Positions 52,257 to 63,935 of a DNA stretch of 64,000 bases are shown piece by piece. The translations under genes were made by a program, and so were the position numbers. Source of the DNA: Planctomycetota bacterium. GTDB lineage: Bacteria > Planctomycetota > Phycisphaerae > UBA1845 > UTPLA1. The notes under the pieces are model-generated. The model saw only the letters and a program-made list of their open reading frames with translations, did not search any database and had not been told where the DNA came from. The DNA is taken from the NCBI GenBank assembly GCA_015654675.1, contig JAATGM010000002.1, positions 1 to 64,000 of the forward strand, in the 5' to 3' direction. Positions within the stretch are counted from its first letter, which is position 1; each line of letters starts with the position of its first letter.

Positions 52257-55200
52257 TCAGTTCTGATTGAGGGCTGGAAGCGAAATCGACTCGATCGGGT
52301 GTCGCGCTTCGATTCTCGCAAAGCGGATGGCGATAGAAGGAAGGACGAGAAGGTTCAGCAGGGTTGAGGTCGCGAGGCCGCCGAGGATGACGATGGCCAT
52401 GGGTCCTTCTATCTCGCGGCCGACCTCGCCAGCGCCGAGGGCGATCGGCAGCAACCCTAGTCCGGTGACGGTTGCGGTCATGAGGATGGGGAGGAGCCGC
52501 TCTGATGCGCCACGGAGGACCGTCTCGCTGCTCCATGGATGGCCTTCGATGAGCACGAGGTGCTCAAAGTGGGAGATCATCATCACGGAATTTCGCATGG
52601 TGATGCCGAAGAGCGTCACGAAACCGACGATGGACCCGATCGAGAGCGAATGGCCGGTAAGGGCGACGGCCGCGACGCCACCGACGAACGCGAAGGGCAG
52701 GTTGGCGAGAACGAGGAGCAGGTTTCGGAGACTGCCGAAGACAGACGAGAGCAGGAGCAGCACGGCTGCGCCGGCGAGGGCGGAATGTAGGAGTAATTCG
52801 CTGGTGGCTTCCTGACGGGCTTCGGCTGTACCGCCGAAGTCGACGTAGGTGCCGGCGGGCATTTCGATTCGAGCGACGCGCTGCTGGGCTTCATGGACGA
52901 AGCCGGCGAGGTCGCGACCGTGGACATTTCCGACGACGGACTGGCGCCGGCGGCCGGCGTCGTGCGAGATCGAGTAGCGGCCCGTCGTGGCGTGGAGGTC
53001 GGCCAGATCGCCGAGTCGAGCGGTTGCGCCGCTGCTGTTTCGGATGAGGAGGTCGCCAATGGCTTCGGGGTCCTGGCGGAGTTTCGGATCGAGGATGACG
53101 CTGACGTCGAAGGAGCGTGTGCCTTCATTGACCTGGCCCACGCGCGTGCCCTGATAGGCAGTCTGCATGGCGTTGAGGACTTCAAGCGTCTGGAAGCCGA
53201 GCTGTTTGAGGCGTTCGCGGTCGAGGCGAATGGTCATGAACGGCGCGCCGGGTGGAGCGGCGACACGAATGTCGGCCGCGCCGCGGATAGAGGAGACCGC
53301 CGTCGCGATTTCGCGCGACTTCTCGTCGAGGATGTCGAGGTCGTCACCGTAGACGCTGATGACGACGGGGGAAGTCTCGCCAGTCATCGTTTCGCTGATG
53401 CGATCGCCGAGGAAGGTCATCGTCTCAGATGTCACGCCGGGGTACTTGTCGAGCAGTTCTCCAATCTGTTTTTGTATCTGGGCTTGCTCGGCACCGGGTG
53501 TGTTCGGCATAAGCTCGACGTGGATTTCGGCGCGGTGCGGGCCCCAGGGGTCTTCGCCAAGTTCTGCGCGGCCGGCCTGGAGCTCTACTGTTGCAATGGC
53601 CGGTGCATCGTGGACGCGGACGTTTTCGAGGAGGTCTTTTGAAATACGGTTTCCGACGCGCATCATTTCGGTGAGCGACGAGCCAGGAGGCATATTGAGC
53701 TGGACCACGAAGTGGCCTTCGCGGAACTCAGGGAGGAACTCGGCTCCAAAGCCGGCGGCGAGCCCAATGGCGAGCAGGACGAGGGCGGCGCATGCGGCCA
53801 TGGTCTGGGTCGGGAAGCGGATCAGCCGCGCAAGAATTGAGACATAGCGGGACTTCAGCACTCTGAGAAAGGCCGGTTCGGCTGTGTGGGCCACCGCGCC
53901 GGGCAACATGATGGCGGCCATGGCGGGCGTAACAGTGAGTGCGACCAGGAGCGAGGCGAGGATCGCAAGGATGTAGGCCACGCCGAGCGGTGCGAACATG
54001 CGACCCTGGATGCCGCTCATCGTCAGGACCGGGACGAACAGCAGTACCACGACGAAGGTTGCGTAGACGACGGCGCTTCGAACTTCGAGGGAGGCGCGGA
54101 GGACTATTTCTGTCGCGGGAAGTGGATTGGGTAGCAGGCGGTTCTCTTTCAGCCGGCGGAAAATGTTCTCGACGTCGATGATTGCGTCGTCGACGACTTC
54201 TCCGATGGCGATTGCCAGGCCACCGAGGGTGATCGTATTCAGGGACATGCCGAACCGCTGCATGACGATGATGGCGGTGAGAAGGGATAGCGGGATCGCG
54301 GTGATGGAAATGAGGGCCGTGCGGAAATTGAAGAGAAAGATGAAGAGGACAACGGCGACCAGAATGCCGCCAATGAACAGAGCGTGGGTGACACGATGGA
54401 TGGCCGTTTCAACGAAGGTGGCCGGTCGGTGCAGGCCTGGATAAAGGGTGATGCCCTCGGCTTCAAAGAGCGGCTTCATGGACTCAAGGGCGGCTTCGAG
54501 CGATTGTGTGACTTCAAGCGTGTTTGATCCGTATTGCCCGAGGACTTTGACGAGGACGCCCGGCTCGCCCTGAATGCTTGCGTCACCGAACATCGGCGCG
54601 GCGCCAAGGACGACCTCGGCGACGTCGCGAATGCGAAGGGGCGAGCCGCCCTGATGACTGATGATGGCGTCGCCAAGTTGGTTGGGGTCGGTGGTCTGGC
54701 CCTCGGCCTGGATGATGACACGTTGATTTGGGGTTTCGACGAACCCCGCGCCGCGCACGCCGCTTGCGGTTCGGGCTGCCACGGCTACGTCTTCGACACT
54801 CAGACCGAAAGCGGCAAGGCGATCGGGATCGATGCGGATTTGCAGTTCCTGCGATTCACCTCCCATCACTCCGACGGATGCGACTCCGGGGACTGCCTGA
54901 AGGCGCGGGCGGACTGTCCAGTCGGCAAAGGCGCGGAGTTCGAGGGGGGATTTTTTCTTTGAGACGAGACCGATCTTGAGGACGTCCATCGTGGCTGATG
55001 TGAGTGGCGTCAGCTTTGGGGGTTTAACGCCATCGGGCAGACCGATGGTTGAGAGCTGCTCGGAGATCATCTGTCGGGCGGTGAGGGGGTTTGTGTCGTC
55101 CTTGAAGACGACGGTGACGATTGAGAGGCCCTGGATCGATTGTGATCGGACCGATTCGATTCCGGCTACACCGTTGACGGCGCCTTCGACTTGCTGGGTG

Positions 55201-55394
55201 ACGAGCTGTTCAACCTGTTCGGGAGAGAGACCCGGGGCTTCGGTTTGAATGGTGACCTGGGGCTGGACGAAATCCGGAAAAACATCGAGCTTGGCGCGCG
55301 AGGCGACGTAGGCCCCGTAAGCTGTAATGATCACGGCGAGGGCGAGAACGAGTCGCCGCGCCTGAATTGATGCGCCGATCAGACCTCTCAGCAT
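52257..55394 (-). CDS. Heavy-metal-efflux-type RND permease 2
   Basis: A 1045-residue inner-membrane pump of the CzcA/CusA class with 12 membrane helices and two large periplasmic loops. N-terminal signatures are DVFPDFVQPQVTIQTEAPG and LSPEQVEQLVTQQVEGAVNG. The TM4 motif reads [18 protein letters not shown]; the acidic residues needed for proton relay are present, but the motif differs from the classical CzcA form (DFG..VDGAVV.VEN), so the metal, if it is a metal, is uncertain. The C-terminal half ends with GLLPIALGAGEVGREIEGPM and TLLNLLVLPSIAIRF. It is paired with the adaptor at 55447-56697 and shares operon and probably the outer-membrane channel with permease 1. Confidence 0.93.
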   Translation of the reverse strand: MLRGLIGASIQARRLVLALAVIITAYGAYVASRAKLDVFPDFVQPQVTIQTEAPGLSPEQVEQLVTQQVEGAVNGVAGIESVRSQSIQGLSIVTVVFKDDTNPLTARQMISEQLSTIGLPDGVKPPKLTPLTSATMDVLKIGLVSKKKSPLELRAFADWTVRPRLQAVPGVASVGVMGGESQELQIRIDPDRLAAFGLSVEDVAVAARTASGVRGAGFVETPNQRVIIQAEGQTTDPNQLGDAIISHQGGSPLRIRDVAEVVLGAAPMFGDASIQGEPGVLVKVLGQYGSNTLEVTQSLEAALESMKPLFEAEGITLYPGLHRPATFVETAIHRVTHALFIGGILVAVVLFIFLFNFRTALISITAIPLSLLTAIIVMQRFGMSLNTITLGGLAIAIGEVVDDAIIDVENIFRRLKENRLLPNPLPATEIVLRASLEVRSAVVYATFVVVLLFVPVLTMSGIQGRMFAPLGVAYILAILASLLVALTVTPAMAAIMLPGAVAHTAEPAFLRVLKSRYVSILARLIRFPTQTMAACAALVLLAIGLAAGFGAEFLPEFREGHFVVQLNMPPGSSLTEMMRVGNRISKDLLENVRVHDAPAIATVELQAGRAELGEDPWGPHRAEIHVELMPNTPGAEQAQIQKQIGELLDKYPGVTSETMTFLGDRISETMTGETSPVVISVYGDDLDILDEKSREIATAVSSIRGAADIRVAAPPGAPFMTIRLDRERLKQLGFQTLEVLNAMQTAYQGTRVGQVNEGTRSFDVSVILDPKLRQDPEAIGDLLIRNSSGATARLGDLADLHATTGRYSISHDAGRRRQSVVGNVHGRDLAGFVHEAQQRVARIEMPAGTYVDFGGTAEARQEATSELLLHSALAGAAVLLLLSSVFGSLRNLLLVLANLPFAFVGGVAAVALTGHSLSIGSIVGFVTLFGITMRNSVMMISHFEHLVLIEGHPWSSETVLRGASERLLPILMTATVTGLGLLPIALGAGEVGREIEGPMAIVILGGLATSTLLNLLVLPSIAIRFARIEARHPIESISLPALNQN

Positions 55395-55446
55395 GAGGTC
55401 TGGTCCGGATGGTGCATCGATAATGGAATGATACCAGGCACTGCCA

Positions 55447-56697
55447 CTACTCCTCCGCTTCGGCGGCCTCGAAATGCGGCTTCATTTCCTGACCCAGGAG
55501 AGACTCGGCGCCGACGATGACGACGCTATCACCCGGCTTGGCGCCGTGAAGCGAGAACCAGCCATCGGTGACGGGCTGATCGAGCGAAACTCCGGTTCGC
55601 ACAAACTTGTTTTTGGCTGTTTCGATAAAAACCCAGGATGTCCCGGCGTGGCGGACGATTGCGCTACGCGGCAGCACGACTCCCGTTCGCGGAGTTCCCG
55701 GCAGGTCGATGAAGGCGCGAACGGACATTCCGGGGCGTAGCCAGGATGGTGGTGCGTTGATGGAGACGACGAGCCCGACACCCTGCATTCTGGAATCGAT
55801 GACCGGGACTACGGCCAACATGGTGGCATCAATGGGGTGGTCCGGCATAACCGCGGCAGTGAGCCGGGCTGTGTGGGGCGGATCGGATCCGAGCTGGCCG
55901 GGCGGGGCGGTCAGGCGGGCTAGCAGTCGATCGAAACGGGAGAGGCGAACGATCGGCTGGCCGGCTTCCACGGATTCATCGGGCTGGGCAAAGACGTCGA
56001 CGACTTCACCTCCGCGGGCAATGACGAGGTCGAGGGGACCGGCGGGACCGGATGTGGCTGTAAGGGCCGAGTGAATCAGCTGCATTGTCTCTTCGGCAGC
56101 CTTGAGGCGAGCTTGTTCGGCCTTGAGGTGGGAGAGGGCTTCTTCAATTACGCGATCAGAGACGATGTGGCCCTGTTCGTTGAGGTCGCGCTTGCTGTCG
56201 TAGGAGTGTTGCGCGGCGTCGAGGGCGGCGCGGGCCTGGTCGGCGTCGGAAGCGGCTGCGGCCAATCGCGAGGCGAGATCGGCGCGCTCCATGGCGGTGA
56301 CGCGCGGTTCAATGTCGCCGATGGCTGCGCCGTCGGCGAGCGTGGAACCCAGCGACGGCCAGGGCTTGCCTGGTGCAGTTCGGAGGGTCCCGGCGACCGG
56401 GGCGCGAAGGGTGAATGTCGAGGCCGGGTCGTTCTCGACCAGCCCGTAGGCGATGGCCTGTCGCGGAACGGATGCGGGCGCGAGGGGCTGCACTTTTAGA
56501 TCGATTCGCTGGGCGGATTCGTCGTCGATCGTGACGCCTGACTCGTGCTCGTTTTCCAGCGATGTGGTCGGTTCGGTGGACTGCGCGGCGCGCGGGGCAT
56601 CGTGCGCGCCATCTCGCGAAAAGAAGGCGCGTCCGGCGAGTCCGCCGGCGACAAAGATGCTGATTGCGATGATGGACCAGAAAACTGTTTTCATCAT
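55447..56697 (-). CDS. RND efflux periplasmic adaptor 2
   Basis: A 416-residue membrane-fusion protein. The start is taken at the double ATG 56694-56697, since a longer frame would run into permease 1. An N-terminal membrane anchor (VFWSIIAISIFVAGGLAGRAFF) is followed by lipoyl-like halves (APVAGTLRTAPG and VIARGGEVVDVFAQPDESV), an alpha-hairpin between them (about 165-245) and beta-barrel plus membrane-proximal domains (MSVRAFIDLPGTPRTGVVLP). No Cys lipobox and no Met- or His-rich metal-binding tail are seen. It bridges the permease and the TolC-like channel. Confidence 0.9.
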   Translation of the reverse strand: MMKTVFWSIIAISIFVAGGLAGRAFFSRDGAHDAPRAAQSTEPTTSLENEHESGVTIDDESAQRIDLKVQPLAPASVPRQAIAYGLVENDPASTFTLRAPVAGTLRTAPGKPWPSLGSTLADGAAIGDIEPRVTAMERADLASRLAAAASDADQARAALDAAQHSYDSKRDLNEQGHIVSDRVIEEALSHLKAEQARLKAAEETMQLIHSALTATSGPAGPLDLVIARGGEVVDVFAQPDESVEAGQPIVRLSRFDRLLARLTAPPGQLGSDPPHTARLTAAVMPDHPIDATMLAVVPVIDSRMQGVGLVVSINAPPSWLRPGMSVRAFIDLPGTPRTGVVLPRSAIVRHAGTSWVFIETAKNKFVRTGVSLDQPVTDGWFSLHGAKPGDSVVIVGAESLLGQEMKPHFEAAEAEE

Positions 56698-56740
56698 GGC
56701 TGCCTTAGTCGGCGTTCGCGCGACATCCGCGCGGCGCGCG

Positions 56741-59700
56741 TTACGCGAGAACGGCTCCGACGTTGGTCGGACGCTCCGGGGCATTCCGAAATACCGCCCA
56801 ATAGAGGGCGGGGAGCAGGAACAGATTGAGTATGGTCGATGTCAGAAGGCCTCCCAGGATCACAATGGCCATGGGGTGTTCGATTTCATGACCCGGGCGA
56901 TTGCCCGCGAGCACGAGCGGGAGCAGGCCGAGGCCGGCGCACAGCGCAGTCATGAGAATGGGCGAGAGACGTTCCTCCGCGCCGCGGAGGATGAGTTTCA
57001 AGCCGAAGGGCATGCCTTCTGATTCGAGGTGCCGATAGTGGCTCACGAGCATGATGCCGTTTCTGGCAGCGATGCCGAGGACGGTGACGAATCCGACGAG
57101 CGACCCGAGGGACAGCACCCCGCCGCCGAGTAGCGCGCCGGCCACTCCGCCGATGAGGGCAAACGGCAGCGTGAGGAAGACGAGCGCGGCGAGTCGGGAC
57201 GACTGAAAGTCCATGTGGAGTAGCAGGAAGATACCGACCAGAGCGAATGCGGAGAGCAGGAGCAACTTGTTTCGCGATTCGACACGCGCGGCGTACTCGC
57301 CCAGGAACTCCGGATGGTAGCCGCGATCGAAGGGGAGGGCGCGAACGCGGTCTTCGATGTCGCGAGCGACGCTGCCCAGGTCGCGGTCGCGAACATTGCA
57401 GGTGACGTCTATGCGACGCGAGGCACCTTCACGTTTGATTTCGTTCGGAGTGGAGACGATTGTGACATCCGCCACATCCTTGAGCGGAACGTGGCCGCCA
57501 CCGGGTGTGTCGATAAGCATGTCTCGGATCGCGGCGAGATCGGCGCGGACCGCCTGTTCGCCCCAGACGGTGACATCGAAAGCCATCTGTCTGTCGTAGA
57601 CTTCGCCGACTTTGAGGCCTTTCACGAGGGCAGTGGCGGTGCGACGAATTGCGCCGGAGGTCAGTCCGAACTGCGCGGCAGCTTCGGGGCGGAGGGCGAC
57701 ATGGATTTGCGGGACGAGGACCTGCGGTTCGACTTTGAGGTCAGCGACACCGGGGACATCCTTGATTGCGGCGGCGACTTCCTGGGACTTGGCGCGGAGC
57801 ACTTCGAGGTCCGGGCCGAAGAGACGGACGACGATCGTGGCGCTGGCGCCGGTCAGGACCTCCTTGATACGCTCCTTCAGGTAGGTCAGGACATCGCGAT
57901 AGAGGCCCGGATATCCGTCGACGACTTCCTGGATGCGTGCGACGGTTTTGTCGTATTCGACGTTTGGATCGATACTGATCCAGAGCTCGGTGAAATTGGG
58001 GCCGACGACTTCATCGGCGACTTCCGCGCGCCCGATGTGTGATCCGAAATTGCGAACGCCCGGAACGGAACGCAGCTCTTTGCTGGCTTGAATTGTGATG
58101 CGGCGCATGGCGTCCAGTGACGTGCCTGGTTTTTCGACCCAATGCATTAAGAAATCGGTTTCCTTGAATGAGGGCAGAAATTCCTCGGCGAGGAGCGGAA
58201 TCGCCGCGGCAGCGACCGCGAGCATGACGACCAGCGCGGCGACGGCGCGGCGTGGGCGCATGACGATGATGGGCAACAGCTGGCGATACCAGTTCTTCAA
58301 GACGCGAACGAGCGGTGCATCGCGGCGATGAAGGGGGCCGCGCGGCAGCAACATGAGCGACATGGCAGGCGTGACGGTGAGGGCGACGGCCAGCGAAGCC
58401 AGGATAGCCAGAATGTATGAAATGGCGAGTGGCCGGAAGAACGTGCCGGCCAGGCCCGGAAGGAAAAAGACCGGCAGAAACACAAGGATGACGATCAGAC
58501 TGGCATAGACAACGGCGCTTCGAACCTCGAGCGATGCATTCAGGACGACCTGGAACGTCGGGAGCGGCGTGGCCAACTCGCGATTGAGGCGGAGACGGCG
58601 TGCGATATTTTCGACATCGATGATGGCGTCGTCGACCACTTCACCGACGGCGATGACCAGTCCGGCGAGAACCATGACATTCAGCGTTCCGCCTTTGAGG
58701 TACAGGACGACGGCAGCGCCGAGGACGGAGAGCGGAATGGCCGTCAGACTGATGACGGCGGTTCGCCAATCGTAAAGGAAGACGATCAGCACGGCTGCGA
58801 CGAGTGCGCAGCCAATGAGCATGGCCCGCGACAGGTTGTCAATGGAACGCTCGATGAAGGTCGCGGGGCGGAAGATCGTGGAGTCGATGTTTACGCCCTT
58901 GAGGCCGGGTTTGAGGGCTTCTATCGCGGCGTCGATTTGCCGCGTGACGGAGAGCGTGTTTCCCCAAGGTTGCTTTTCAACGATGAGCAGAAGTCCGGGG
59001 CCATCATTGATGACGGCGTCGCCAATAGGCGGGGGATGGCCTTCGACGATCCTGGCGACATCACCCAGTCGGATCGGCACGCGATTGCGAAAGGACACTA
59101 TTGATCGGGCCAGGTCGGAGGGGTCGACAATCCACGAAGCGTGGCGCACCGCCAGGCGCTGGTTGGGCATGTCGACGAAGCCGCCGGCGCTGACGACGGT
59201 TGCATCGCCGGCGGCCTTCATGACTTCATCCAGCGTGATGCCGTGCGCGCGGAGTACGGCGGGATCGACCAGGATCTGGAGTTGTCGGTCGCGCTGTCCC
59301 CATATGGCGACGTTCGCCACGCCCGGAATTGCCATGAGCTTCGGGCGGATGGTCCACTTGGCGAGCGTCGTGAGGTCCATCTGCGAGAGCGTCGGCGAGG
59401 ATACCCCGATCTTGAGGATGCGGCTGAGTGAAGAGAGCGGAGACAACATGATTGGCGGCCGGGCGAGCGCGGGGAGTCGAGCGGCCTCGATGGCGAGGCG
59501 TTCCTGAACGATCTGGCGGGCCTTGAGCAGATCGGTGCCTTCATTAAACAGCATGACGATTGACGAGAGGCCTTGCACCGACTTGGATCGAATGGTCCGA
59601 AGCCAGGCCGTTCCGTTGAGCGCGTTCTCCAGCGGCACGGTGATCAGATTTTCCACCTCGTCGGTCGATAGTCCGGGGGCCTCGGTTTGTATTTCGACCA

Positions 59701-59836
59701 GCGGGGGGGCGAATTCAGGGAACACGTCGAGTGGTGTGACGCGCGCGGTCTCGACGCCGACGACCAGAAGCCCGACCGCCAGGGCGACCACCGGTACTCG
59801 AAAGCGCAAAGATGTCGTGACAAGCCAAGTCAGCAT
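56741..59836 (-). CDS. Heavy-metal-efflux-type RND permease 1
   Basis: A 1031-residue pump of the same class as the one at 52257-55394 and its paralogue. It opens with [23 protein letters not shown]-like sequence and [22 protein letters not shown]4 carries [18 protein letters not shown], the same variant motif as permease 2. The second half contains [18 protein letters not shown]-like and [20 protein letters not shown] signatures. ATG 59836 starts 30 bases after the adaptor stop. The two permeases may form separate pumps or a mixed trimer, as MdtB/MdtC do; the sequence alone cannot tell. Confidence 0.93.
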
Positions 59837-59865
59837 GGATGTAACCTGTCGGTCGAGCGTCCGTT

Positions 59866-61170
59866 TTACTTTCCGGCGCCGAATTCAACTCCAAACAGTT
59901 CCGCGGCGCCGTCGGTGACGATGGTCATTCCGGGTTCAAGGCCGCGGGCAATGATGGCGTCCTGCCCTTCAACGCCGCGTACCTCCACGCGGCGCCGGGT
60001 GAATTTCTGTGATTGGGTCTGTTGATAGACCCATGTTCCGCCGTGCATGTCGTGGAGGAGCGCAGACCAGGGAACCACCAATCCGGATTGCGGTTCGCGC
60101 AATGGAATCCACACGCCGACGCGCTGTTGCGGCCGGAAATTTGACTCAGGGTTGGCGAGTCGAAAGAAGACATCGACACTGGCAGAGAGAGGGTCGGCGG
60201 ATGGGGCGCCGGAAACACGCTCGACCAACTCCAGTCCGGGCGTCATTCGGCCGTTCAGCCCGCCGACGCGAACCTGTCCGTCCAAGTCCAGTTCATCCAA
60301 CGCCCCGACGTAGATCGGTACGCGAATCCATAGTGGGTTGACGGCGACCAATCTTGCGACGAGTGCGCTTGCCGCGATGACTTCGCCGGGTGCGACGGTC
60401 AGGTCGGCGAGGATGCCATCGAAGGGCGCGACGAGGTCGAGGCCATGTTGTGGATCGGCGTGCATTCCCTGAGCGGCGTTACTCCATGCCGTCGTCTTTG
60501 CTTCGGCGGCTTCGAGCCGGGATTTCGCCAGATCATGTTCGGCTTTGGCCTCATCCAAAAGCTTTTCGCTGGTTACGTTGTCTTTGCGCAGGCGCTCCAC
60601 GCGATCGAGCCGGGCGCGGGCGGCTTCCAATTGCACTTGTGCCGCTGATACTTCGCCCTCCGCCTGGGCGCGGGCCGCATCGAAATCCGCTGTCGCGCGG
60701 GCGAGCGAAATTCGCTCCGATGGCATCAGGACTTCGCGCCCGGCCATTACGACGGGCTGCAGGCGTAGAATCGGTTGGCCCTTTTTCATCATTGATCCGG
60801 GCACGGGTGTGGCCTTGCCGTCGATGGCGGTGATCGTTCCCGAAAACGGCGCGGCGAGTTGTATGGCATTTCCAGGAGGGACCATTGTTTCACCGCCAAA
60901 GAGTCGTCGGCGGGAAATCTTTTCCACGCGCGCTGGCACGGTCTTGATTGCGAGGCGCGCTATTGCCTCGGGTGTCAGCGAAATGGTCGTCAGTGCTGCT
61001 TCAGTGACACGGTTTTCCACTGTCGCCGGGGCAAGCCCTTTGACTTTTTCTGGCCGGTTTTCGGGCTCGCCTTGTGAGCGGGCGGGCTCGACTGATACGA
61101 GCGCCAGCGAGGCGAGTACCCGTAAGGCCGTCGAAACGGGAGACCTTATGTGTTTGTGTTTTTGTTTCAT
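59866..61170 (-). CDS. RND efflux periplasmic adaptor 1
   Basis: A 434-residue membrane-fusion protein with a signal peptide ([18 protein letters not shown]). The order of parts is typical: N-terminal strand region, lipoyl half ([20 protein letters not shown]), long alpha-hairpin coiled-coil (about 155-235, with [19 protein letters not shown]), second lipoyl half ([20 protein letters not shown]), beta-barrel and membrane-proximal domain ([20 protein letters not shown]). It lacks the extra N-terminal His-rich domain of some CzcB proteins. Its ATG follows the stop of the 40-residue gene by 20 bases. Confidence 0.92.
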
Positions 61171-61190: not shown

Positions 61191-61313
61191 TCAGAACAGG
61201 AACGCGGCGAGTCCCTGCCTGAAGAAACTCAGGAAGAAATTCAGAAAGATTCCCATCAGATCGAGAAGCGATTGCGTTATGGCACTAATCAGGTCCGGTG
61301 ACGTAGTTCCCAT
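61191..61313 (-). CDS. 40-residue membrane peptide in the RND operon
   Basis: ATG 61313 is preceded by the sequence AAGGAGGTAAGAACGAAC, one of the strongest ribosome sites in the window, which starts directly at the TolC-gene stop codon (TGA overlapping the site). The frame is 40 codons and stops at 61191. The product begins MGTTSPDLISAITQSLLDLM and continues as a very hydrophobic Phe/Leu-rich helix (GIFLNFFLSFFRQGLAAFLF), so it is a single-pass or amphipathic membrane peptide. By size and position it may be an accessory to the pump, as AcrZ is to AcrB; there is no sequence similarity I can claim. It lies between the TolC-like gene and adaptor 1 with gaps of 17 and 20 bases. Confidence 0.65.
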   Translation of the reverse strand: MGTTSPDLISAITQSLLDLMGIFLNFFLSFFRQGLAAFLF

Positions 61314-61330
61314 GTTCGTTCTTACCTCCT

Positions 61331-62848
61331 TCAGTTCAATTGCGCGTCCTGAGTCGTGGGCTGGGTGGCGGTGACGGTCGGCATTCGACCGCCGACGGCG
61401 CGTTCGAGCGTGGCATAGGCGACAGCGTATTCGCGTAAGACGCTAACATACGCGCGACGGCGAATCACCAGGAACTGCTGGGCGTCAAGCACGACGAGCT
61501 GGTCCTGCGTGCCGGCGGCATAGGCCTGCTCGGCGGCCTGCAAGTTGGAGCGGGCGAGGGGTAGAATTTCCTTTTCGTAGAAGGCGACCTGTTCGGCGGC
61601 GATTCGCGCGATCGCGGCGGCCTCCTGAATCTGGTCGGCAACGAGGTCGAACAACGATTCGAGCTCTTTGCGTCGCTGCTCGATCAGGAACGCGGCTCGC
61701 GCAATGCGGGCCTGGTTCTGGTCAAAGACGGGGAGAGTCACCTGAATCGACGGCCCGGAGAGAAAGTCAACAATCTGGCGTTCGAGCATGGCGCGTTGAC
61801 CACGCGAATCGATAGTTGGAGCGGTGAGGGCGCCCGCGGCGACAGACGAGCGGGCGGTGTCCGCCAGGACAGTCCGTCCGGGGACGCCGCGCGTGTCGGG
61901 ACGTTCGTAGCCGGCGCCGAGTTGCACGCTCGGAAAAATGTTGAGGTATTGGCGGGTTAGTTCGCTTTTAGCGGCATCGATCTGACGCACTTTCGCTTGC
62001 GCATCCATGCGCTCGACCAGCCCGGTGGCGAGTAAGGCCGCGTCGTCGGCGATTGGCGTGGCGGAACTGGGAAGCTCGTCGGCAAGCTGCCACGGCTGAG
62101 TCCACCGGCTAATGCCGAGGACCTGGGCCAGGGCGGCGGATGCGACCTGGCGATCGCGTTTCGCGTTGAGCACGTCGAGTTGAGCTTCGGTCCAGGTGGC
62201 TCGCACGAGATTCGCGTCGAGGGAACTGGTTTCGCCGTTACGGACGCGTTTCTCGCTGATGGCGAGGGAGCGATCGATGATGGCGACATTTTCGATGGCG
62301 TATTCCTCGGCTTTGGCGAAGGCGAGCACGCGGTAGTAGTTGACACGAACCTGTCCGGCGATTTCGACACCGCGCTGCACGACGCTGAATATGACGCGGT
62401 CGAGTTCCGCGGCGGCGACCTGCTTTCGCACGGGGATCTGCCAAAGGTCGACCAGTTCCTGCGTGAAACCGCCGTTCAGTTTCGATCGCCCGCCGCCTTC
62501 GGGGAAAATCACCGAGAAAGAGACAATGGGATTGGAGAGAAGTCCTGATTGCACGACGTCGGCGCGCGAAGCGCCAATCTGTGCGAAAAGGGACTGGAAC
62601 TCGGGATTATTAAGCAACGCGATCTGGACGGCTTCGTCGGCCGTCAGCCCACCATCGAGGAGTTGGCTGACTCGATCATGGACGAGGGCGTCGGTCGCGG
62701 GGTCGTAAACATCGGAAGTGCCGGTCTGCCGAATTGTGAGCGCGTCGGTGCGATCGTAATCGGGCTGGGGGCGCACAGCGCAGGCCGAAAGCAGGCAGGC
62801 GAGCGCAGGCGCGACAACTTGGACCATCCATTTGCGCAGAGATCGCAC
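61331..62848 (-). CDS. TolC/CusC-type outer-membrane efflux lipoprotein
   Basis: A 505-residue outer-membrane factor. The start is GTG 62848; the signal ends in lipobox LLSAC (Cys22), as in CusC/NodT-type channels. Two OEP repeats (about 60-265 and 275-490) are seen: long helices with LNNPEFQSLFAQIGASRADV, GLLSNPIVSFSVIFPEGG, and in the second half the FLSGPSIQVTLPVFDQNQAR and YEKEILPLARSNLQAAEQAY regions. It should form the trimeric exit duct for one or both RND pumps of this operon. The stop codon leads directly into the ribosome site of the 40-residue gene. Confidence 0.93.
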   Translation of the reverse strand: MRSLRKWMVQVVAPALACLLSACAVRPQPDYDRTDALTIRQTGTSDVYDPATDALVHDRVSQLLDGGLTADEAVQIALLNNPEFQSLFAQIGASRADVVQSGLLSNPIVSFSVIFPEGGGRSKLNGGFTQELVDLWQIPVRKQVAAAELDRVIFSVVQRGVEIAGQVRVNYYRVLAFAKAEEYAIENVAIIDRSLAISEKRVRNGETSSLDANLVRATWTEAQLDVLNAKRDRQVASAALAQVLGISRWTQPWQLADELPSSATPIADDAALLATGLVERMDAQAKVRQIDAAKSELTRQYLNIFPSVQLGAGYERPDTRGVPGRTVLADTARSSVAAGALTAPTIDSRGQRAMLERQIVDFLSGPSIQVTLPVFDQNQARIARAAFLIEQRRKELESLFDLVADQIQEAAAIARIAAEQVAFYEKEILPLARSNLQAAEQAYAAGTQDQLVVLDAQQFLVIRRRAYVSVLREYAVAYATLERAVGGRMPTVTATQPTTQDAQLN

Positions 62849-62918: not shown

Positions 62919-63854
62919 TCATTTCCAGTCGAGCGACCATTGAAACTTCGCACCCAGATTGGGAGTTTCCTGCTGGCCGTCGAGCCCCACGTCGACGGCG
63001 AATTTGACGTGTTGATGGACAGTCCCCCGCCAGTAGATCTGCCGGACGACACCGAACTCGAGAACGTTGATGTTGTGATGTCCATATTCATTACTGCTGC
63101 GATTGGTATAGTTGACGAGACCGAGCGTTTTGTCATCGAATAAATAGTCCACGCCCGGACCGATGCCCCATTGGAAGTTTCGGCGGTCGATATCCTCGCT
63201 GGTCGGATTTCCATTGGCGGTTTCGATGAATGCCTGAAGGTTGACGCGGAGTTTGTCCGTCAGGGACTTGGTCAGAACTCCGTTCAGAGCCGCGTCGACG
63301 CCGCTGGAGCCGTCTCCGGTCGGCAGCCGCAGGTCAACATAAGCCGCGATGGCCGGAATGGCCTCCTTTTCGCGGACGAGCGTATCGAAGGCGATCAGCT
63401 CGAGACTTCCAGCGCCGTAGCCGCCACCATAGCCGAGGTTGGGTTCGAGCACTTCGAGCTCAATGAAGAAGTCGTTTGTGAAGCCGTATTTGAGGGTTTG
63501 TACCAGATCGACCTCATCGCGCTCGTGTGATCTGGTAAACCAGAATGTTTCCGACTCAATCTCCCACTCGCCCTGAATGACCTGCGAGTTTGCCTCGCGA
63601 ACATTGAAAAAATCACTGACTTCCCGATATTCCTCCTGACCTTCTGCGTCGAGGCGTTTGCGCGGCGCGACGGCGGATGGATCGTCTGACGACGGGGTCG
63701 TCTGCTGGGGTTGCTCTGTGAGACTCATCGGGTCGGCCGGCGATTCCTGATTTCCGCGGCGCGGCTGGCGGGCGGACTGGGCCGCGACCGTGCGCAGCGA
63801 GCAGAGAAGACAGAAGGTTACGAGGGCCTGGCGACTCCAGCGATGCGTATTCAT
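62919..63854 (-). CDS. Predicted outer-membrane beta-barrel protein
   Basis: A 311-residue protein. ATG 63854 with GGAG six bases upstream and a signal peptide (ALVTFCLLCSLRTVAAQ) is preferred over an in-frame start at 63923. After a disordered linker (about 25-75) come regular amphipathic strands with LKYGFTNDFFIELEVLEPN, YVDLRLPTGDGSSGVDAALN, RVNLQAFIETANGNP and GPGVDYLFDDKTLGLVNYT. The PTGDG turn and overall form recall the MetA/phenol-degradation-type transporter-like barrels (PF13557), a loose fit. It lies upstream of the TolC gene in the same direction and may help uptake or sensing of the pump substrate. Confidence 0.7.
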   Translation of the reverse strand: MNTHRWSRQALVTFCLLCSLRTVAAQSARQPRRGNQESPADPMSLTEQPQQTTPSSDDPSAVAPRKRLDAEGQEEYREVSDFFNVREANSQVIQGEWEIESETFWFTRSHERDEVDLVQTLKYGFTNDFFIELEVLEPNLGYGGGYGAGSLELIAFDTLVREKEAIPAIAAYVDLRLPTGDGSSGVDAALNGVLTKSLTDKLRVNLQAFIETANGNPTSEDIDRRNFQWGIGPGVDYLFDDKTLGLVNYTNRSSNEYGHHNINVLEFGVVRQIYWRGTVHQHVKFAVDVGLDGQQETPNLGAKFQWSLDWK

Positions 63855-63935
63855 CCTTGACTCCGCGTCGTTTGATCGGGATTTCTGCGTCCTGACCCGG
63901 GCCACATCCGGCACGCTCGGCATTTGGGGCGTGAA

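Follow-up and report, generated by a model that had tools for sequence, protein, structure and literature searches.

The 40-codon open reading frame that lies between a channel gene and an adaptor gene in the window (the whole 64,000-nucleotide stretch of DNA that was analysed, from a genome of 4.93 Mb in 62 contigs) is a member of a family not described before, whose very small proteins are for the most part lipid-anchored and whose genes stand next to those of metal-type efflux pumps in one order of the Planctomycetota. The gene, its conservation, its link to the operon, the existence of two forms of the protein, and the exchange of these forms at one locus are established by the sequence alone. 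The reading preferred here, to which a probability of a little under one half (roughly 0.47) is assigned, is that the frame is translated into a small membrane protein which, as a signal-less member of the family, would act at the inner membrane as an accessory subunit of heavy-metal-type RND pumps.

The window operon and its small gene

The operon runs on the minus strand from 62848 to 52257 in the order OEP, 40-codon gene, adaptor A, RND permease A, adaptor B, RND permease B, and comprises the following features.

61331-62848, minus strand: OEP, a TolC-like outer membrane channel with its own lipobox LSAC (Pfam OEP, 1.1e-32)
61324-61331, minus strand: Shine-Dalgarno sequence AAGGAGGT, overlapping the last base of the OEP stop codon, with a 10-nt spacer to the ATG (read from the sequence)
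61191-61313, minus strand: small gene of 40 aa, signal-less member of the family, product MGTTSPDLISAITQSLLDLMGIFLNFFLSFFRQGLAAFLF (reading of the frame, and homologues)
61197-61298, minus strand: predicted helix, residues 6-39 (AlphaFold2 from the single sequence, mean pLDDT 89.5)
61194-61256, minus strand: codons of the conserved C-terminal 21 residues MGIFLNFFLSFFRQGLAAFLF (C-terminal profile and composition)
59866-61170, minus strand: periplasmic adaptor A (TIGR01730, 129.9 bits, above the cut-off of 94.9)
56741-59836, minus strand: RND permease A, CusA/CzcA-like (ACR_tran, 5.8e-226; TIGR00914, 623.6 bits, below the cut-off of 701.45; closer to CusA than to AcrB)
55447-56784, minus strand: second adaptor, adaptor B (HlyD_3, 1.1e-9; TIGR01730, 82.4 bits, below the cut-off of 94.9)
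52257-55394, minus strand: second RND permease, permease B, CusA/CzcA-like (ACR_tran, 6.5e-244; TIGR00914, 701.2 bits against the cut-off of 701.45; closer to CusA than to AcrB)

The sequence-only reading had placed the frame exactly between the TolC-like gene and the adaptor gene, with a ribosome site overlapping the stop codon of the former, and re-reading of the sequence bears this out: the OEP stop codon TGA occupies 61331-61333 and shares one base with the Shine-Dalgarno sequence, and adaptor A begins (at 61170) 20 nt past the stop of the small gene. The assignment of the operon to the metal type also holds, both permeases of the window being closer to CusA than to AcrB; measured against the cut-off of the CusA/CzcA model, TIGR00914, permease A falls clearly below and permease B just below. 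The product had been described as a hydrophobic helix, which agrees with the single helix predicted by AlphaFold2.

Two adaptor-permease modules stand in tandem behind one OEP in the window (52257-61170), and a similar double module, with the small gene between the modules, is found at another locus, L088 (loci are denoted by L labels and genomes by G labels, the window genome being G000). In its longest reading adaptor B shares 44 bases (56741-56784) with the end of permease A, and the true start of adaptor B may be further in. Upstream of the OEP on the same strand, at 62919-63923, there is a gene that matches Phenol_MetA_deg weakly (23.7 bits; cut-off 22) and possibly encodes an outer-membrane beta-barrel.

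Extent and conservation of the family

A tblastn search with the 40 residues, which the sequence-only reading had proposed, yields six true homologues in 60 relatives (L003-L006, L009 and L010), each adjoining OEP or RND genes and each ending in RQGLAAFLF, RQALAAFLL, RSALAAFLL or a similar sequence at the stop codon. The other matches were dropped because they fall in long or unrelated frames. Those in long frames, most of them of 900-1009 aa (L007, L008, L012, L015-L017, L019, L021 and L022), have no OEP or RND match nearby and are attributed to chance, as are those at L018 and in some shorter unrelated frames; the sequence common to the long-frame group within L007-L022 is one that we take to be aconitase.

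The first profile, built from seven rows, had matches at E 0.1 in 35 of the 114 genomes returned by the search for the window's order. The second profile, which represents the last 21 residues of 28 rows and was used with a threshold of E 0.01, finds 58 places in 41 of these 114 genomes (the window included) and gives no match in the other 73. Applied to the phylum sample, this C-terminal profile matches the window's genome alone out of 392, and thus none of the 391 others; kinship is listed for 20 of the 391, and all 20 belong to the same class. A pattern scan of the genome contigs produced 70 matching stretches, 2 of which were confirmed. The profile match ends at the stop codon or at most 7 codons before it in every one of the 58 places, and Phe at position -11, Arg at -9 and Ala at -4 are present in all 58, an invariance that partly reflects the choice of members by a profile built on such residues. 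The approximate C-terminal consensus of the members is LxxFVxDFxRQALAAFLF-stop. One diverged member, L186 (MDTSTFFTDLIGLFFSGFLSFGLDFILQFLAAFLV), which lies 130 bases past the OEP stop and has Leu in place of the otherwise invariant Arg, is unlisted by the profile at E 0.01.

The sequence-only reading had staked the existence of the gene on conservation of its frame in relatives, with a bias towards synonymous change, and had named missing conservation or broken frames as what would refute it; this check was made, and the gene withstood it, the frame being conserved. Over the last 21 codons, the synonymous and non-synonymous differences give pS = 53.5/140.7 = 0.38 and pN = 37.5/426.3 = 0.09 in nine disjoint pairs, which were hand-picked from the close pairs with the identical pair L081/L082 left out; the resulting ratio pN/pS of 0.23 is somewhat flattered, since the codons were found with a protein profile.

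The family has no counterpart in the collections searched. Scans of nine members against Pfam gave no match over cut-off, those under cut-off being to WASH-7_mid (0.18) and ComX (0.083), both unrelated families; NCBIfam gave no match to the window peptide; the family profile matched no solved chain in the PDB at E 1; and no paper title or abstract describing such a family was found in the open literature searched, a scope that excludes subscription papers and preprints. The gene is short enough to escape ordinary annotation.

Association with metal-type RND pumps

The surroundings of all 58 places (57 loci and the window) were fetched. In 54 of them the gene immediately upstream, on the same strand, encodes an OEP, and a same-strand RND gene is present within the fetched stretch in 53. 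The long RND permease frames at these loci number 57, of which 55 are closer to CusA, 2 (L086 and L133) are ambiguous, and none is closer to AcrB. The pump genes occur in several orders, including OEP-peptide-adaptor-RND, RND-OEP-peptide, and OEP-peptide-RND. The earlier placement of the gene in an RND operon is therefore correct as to the CusA/CzcA type of the operon, but the neighbour of the small gene is nearly always the OEP and not the permease.

Of the four places that lack an adjacent OEP, three adjoin an RND gene. At L086 the peptide is followed by the RND gene and then by a 280-codon frame that the contig end truncates; at L088 the order is RND-peptide-MFP, the peptide separating one module's RND gene from the next module's adaptor in a gene row that is headed by an OEP; and at L097 the peptide comes just after the RND gene. 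The fourth, L100, is near a contig start, and no pump gene was found there. RND genes are on the other strand only at L093 and L106, and none is seen at L079, a 4-kb contig, or at L100 and L105, both near contig ends. L086 has, in addition, two further genes 427-2527 bases upstream of the peptide stop, one divergent and response-regulator-like, the other of 475 codons, which are possibly a metal-sensing pair.

The association was also counted in reverse, starting from the 39 OEP genes of seven genomes, which were paired by hand from two domain matches per gene. The peptide is present at 14 of the 24 OEPs with a same-strand RND gene (13 by profile, and L186) and at none of the 15 without one, in a hand count that places L168, where the RND gene is on the other strand only, among the 15, and in which contig ends could conceal an RND gene at a few of these. 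When the same OEPs are divided by tblastn similarity to that of the window, the peptide is found at 14 of the 21 similar ones and at none of the 18 others. Since 10 of the 24 OEP-RND loci have no such peptide and 73 of the 114 genomes give no match, the pumps do not require it. That the small gene belongs to metal-type RND pumps is nevertheless well supported.

Two forms of the protein

The members fall into two forms, which were assigned by motif reading and not by a signal-peptide program (L121 and L135 by eye; the stretch at L105 is weak). The “lipoprotein” form, which has a hydrophobic stretch and a lipobox Cys ahead of its mature part, accounts for 46 of the 58, and the “signal-less” form, which starts with Met and leaves no room for a signal, for the remaining 12, the window's among them. 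The membrane peptide of the sequence-only reading is thus a real and conserved gene, but the form in which it was first seen is that of a minority, most members being lipoprotein-like.

An amphipathic helix forms the C-terminal end of both forms. In the 28 members tested, the last 18 residues are amphipathic as a helix and not as a strand, the helical moment peaking at 85-110 degrees in all 28, and polar positions recur along one side. Asp -12 and Arg -9 sit within the hydrophobic stretch, which is unusual for a plain membrane-spanning helix. The content of His, Met and Cys beyond residue 1 averages 0.75 in the signal-less form and 0.37 in the lipoprotein form. The C-terminal Phe was considered as an outer-membrane beta-signal and ruled out, because the periodicity is helical and the moments are low at 160-180 degrees. 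A frameshift fusion of the OEP and the peptide cannot be general, since the peptide frame at L114 has 38 codons and stops short of the OEP.

The signal-less form is the more hydrophobic, its best 19-residue mean hydropathy being 1.59-1.96 versus 0.62-1.78 in the lipoprotein form (Mann-Whitney p 5e-7). According to the positive-inside rule, an acidic N-terminus free of Lys and Arg favours the periplasmic side. From residue 2 to the last 13 residues, Lys or Arg occurs in none of the 12 signal-less members and Asp or Glu in all 12, so a periplasmic N-terminus is favoured, which is the side on which the N-terminus of the lipoprotein lies. Residue +2 of the lipoprotein forms offers no single retention signal.

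On the OEP tree the signal-less label changes 5 times, at least 3 of these changes being forced by starred branches, and the sister pairs L101/L108 and L104/L107 contain one form each. When signal-less L052 is compared with lipoprotein L101, the upstream RND stretch is 94.6% identical and most of the OEP 87%, and the alignment breaks down near the 3' end of the OEP, where L101 carries the lipoprotein gene. This break is read as a sign that one form replaced the other in the same slot, and such a replacement suggests that the two forms are probably equivalent in function. The family is tentatively proposed, with somewhat less than even confidence, to supply metal-type RND pumps with a fourth subunit peculiar to this lineage. 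Its membrane helix would be brought into place by either of two exchangeable means, as part of a lipoprotein or through direct insertion with no signal, and the locus would have seen repeated switches of form and replacements of the gene. The contig of L052 (WIAH01000025.1) is titled as a Nitrospira sp. CR1.3 MAG; a transfer to Nitrospira was considered and rejected, since over 3.8 kb its RND stretch shares 94.6% identity with G013, a genome of the window's order, and judging by this identity the contig is probably misbinned.

Proposed role and competing explanations

The translation, location, topology, binding partner and effect of the protein are features that we infer, and the following mechanism is proposed for them. 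The common form would have its lipidated Cys as N-terminus after cleavage of the signal peptide, while the window form, with its short, acidic tail free of Lys and Arg and its longer, more hydrophobic helix, would enter the membrane directly, its N-terminus on the periplasmic side. Both would present the same C-terminal amphipathic helix (Phe -11, Arg -9, Ala -4) with a free hydrophobic C-terminus, and both would be held at the inner membrane, the one by lipid and the other by direct insertion. The helix could then pack against the permease or the adaptor and thereby stabilize or tune the pump. The inner membrane is suggested for both forms because known routes take the signal-less form to this membrane only and the two forms seem able to replace each other, and the loci where the peptide stands beside an RND gene with no adjacent OEP (L086, L088 and L097) support a pump subunit. 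Several observations count against the accessory-subunit reading: the charged residues Asp -12 and Arg -9 in the hydrophobic stretch, the lack of a single retention signal at +2, the two loci with RND genes on the other strand only, and the three at which no RND gene is seen. The constancy of the adjacent OEP across several gene orders counts against the inner membrane in particular, and points to the OEP.

This last observation is the reason why a substantial minority of the probability is kept by the main alternative, in which the small lipoprotein goes to the outer membrane, where its helix would, in a binding like that of YbjP to E. coli TolC, pack on the OEP trimer and aid its assembly, placement or opening. 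The OEP is directly upstream of the small gene even where the RND gene precedes the OEP and the small gene trails it, 14 of the 21 window-like OEPs and none of the 18 others in the seven genomes carry the peptide, and a lipoprotein partner of TolC is known (PMC13082787). Against such a role stand the 12 members which have no signal peptide and hence no known path to the outer membrane, and the three places that adjoin an RND gene but no OEP. The version in which the small lipoprotein supplies lipid to an unlipidated OEP was rejected: 2 of the 54 partner OEPs are cut at the N-terminus, and all 52 others carry a lipobox-like Cys of their own (51 found by script, and L103 by eye), so that by motif the partner OEPs appear to be lipoproteins themselves. 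The partial correlations of peptide distances over 47 loci are 0.18 with the OEP and 0.12 with RND, and the presence of the peptide requires 4 changes on the OEP tree versus 6 on the RND tree, the two trees having different row sets and being quick constructions (the former an IQ-TREE quick search with two long rows, the latter a FastTree with long-branch warnings). The trees and distance correlations lean slightly to the OEP and decide nothing.

The remaining explanations are less probable. The amphipathicity of the helix, with its polar positions on one side, would also suit an improbable membrane-surface peptide without a fixed partner, lying flat in the membrane and acting on lipid or assembling with itself, with shared induction as its only tie to the operon; a conserved core fixed at the C-terminus and the restriction to one pump type suggest instead a protein partner, even if the profile selection exaggerates the conservation. 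The slot of the gene is that of cusF, between cusC and cusB in E. coli K-12, yet a periplasmic metal carrier like the CusF of cusCFBA is very unlikely in view of the scarcity of His, Met and Cys, the lack of a Pfam match over cut-off, and a product that is a hydrophobic helix and not a soluble domain. A short frame with a strong ribosome site immediately ahead of the adaptor might be a regulatory leader or a coupling frame whose product is irrelevant, and this is equally hard to credit given the constraint at the protein level, the signal-like stretch and lipobox of most members, and loci (L094, L098, L101, L104 and L108 among others) where RND is upstream and no RND or adaptor match comes after the small gene. 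Length alone would permit a chance open frame, and the window holds many unrelated frames of similar size, but conservation, the fixed C-terminus and synteny in 58 places refute it for practical purposes.

Comparison with known systems

Metal-type RND pumps are regarded as tripartite, some having CusF in addition, and a conserved fourth gene at 14 of 24 OEP-RND loci in seven genomes would be a new pump part. AcrZ, WatS1-5 and YbjP are the nearest systems in kind, CusF being comparable in position alone; the family is a member of none of those for which membership was tested. CusF shares with the present gene its small size and its place between the channel and the adaptor of a metal-type RND operon (cusCFBA), but its annotation is that of a periplasmic binding protein about 110 codons long, whereas the product here is a hydrophobic helix in which His, Met and Cys are almost absent, and no CusF-type periplasmic metal-binding domain was found over the Pfam cut-off in nine members.

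YbjP, as described in the available sections of its report, is a lipoprotein partner of TolC, the channel of tripartite pumps, and is limited to some Enterobacterales (PMC13082787). The restriction to a lineage recalls the YbjP so described. A lipoprotein motif is read in 46 of the 58 members and is absent from the window's own. The differences are that YbjP has a DUF3828 domain while the present family consists of a bare linker and a helix, and that, by the same sections, YbjP binds a TolC without a lipid of its own while the partner OEPs here carry lipoboxes (PMC13082787). DUF3828 was not matched in the Pfam scans of nine members.

The polypeptides WatS1-WatS5 of Methylomonas sp. DH-1 are likewise unannotated, about 50 residues long and tied to an RND pump, WatS1-4 having one predicted transmembrane domain each in the text available (PMC10355033). 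They concern acetate tolerance in a methanotroph, and that text reports no lipoprotein form, the comparison being one of descriptions only (PMC10355033).

AcrZ of Escherichia coli is a very small membrane protein of an RND pump which alters what the pump exports (PMC7267776). The window product, with its predicted helix of residues 6-39, would resemble it as a very small single-helix membrane protein tied to an RND pump. AcrZ acts on AcrB, a drug-type permease, whereas the present operons are metal-type, 55 of 57 long permeases being closer to CusA; the present gene, moreover, lies inside the pump operon, and most of its relatives are lipoprotein-like. Similarity to AcrZ was found neither in Pfam, for nine members, nor among PDB chains at E 1, for the family profile. 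By analogy, an AcrZ-like tuning of the permease is possible, and the presence of two forms at one locus provides a natural experiment on whether lipid anchoring and direct insertion can substitute for one another in delivering the same helix.
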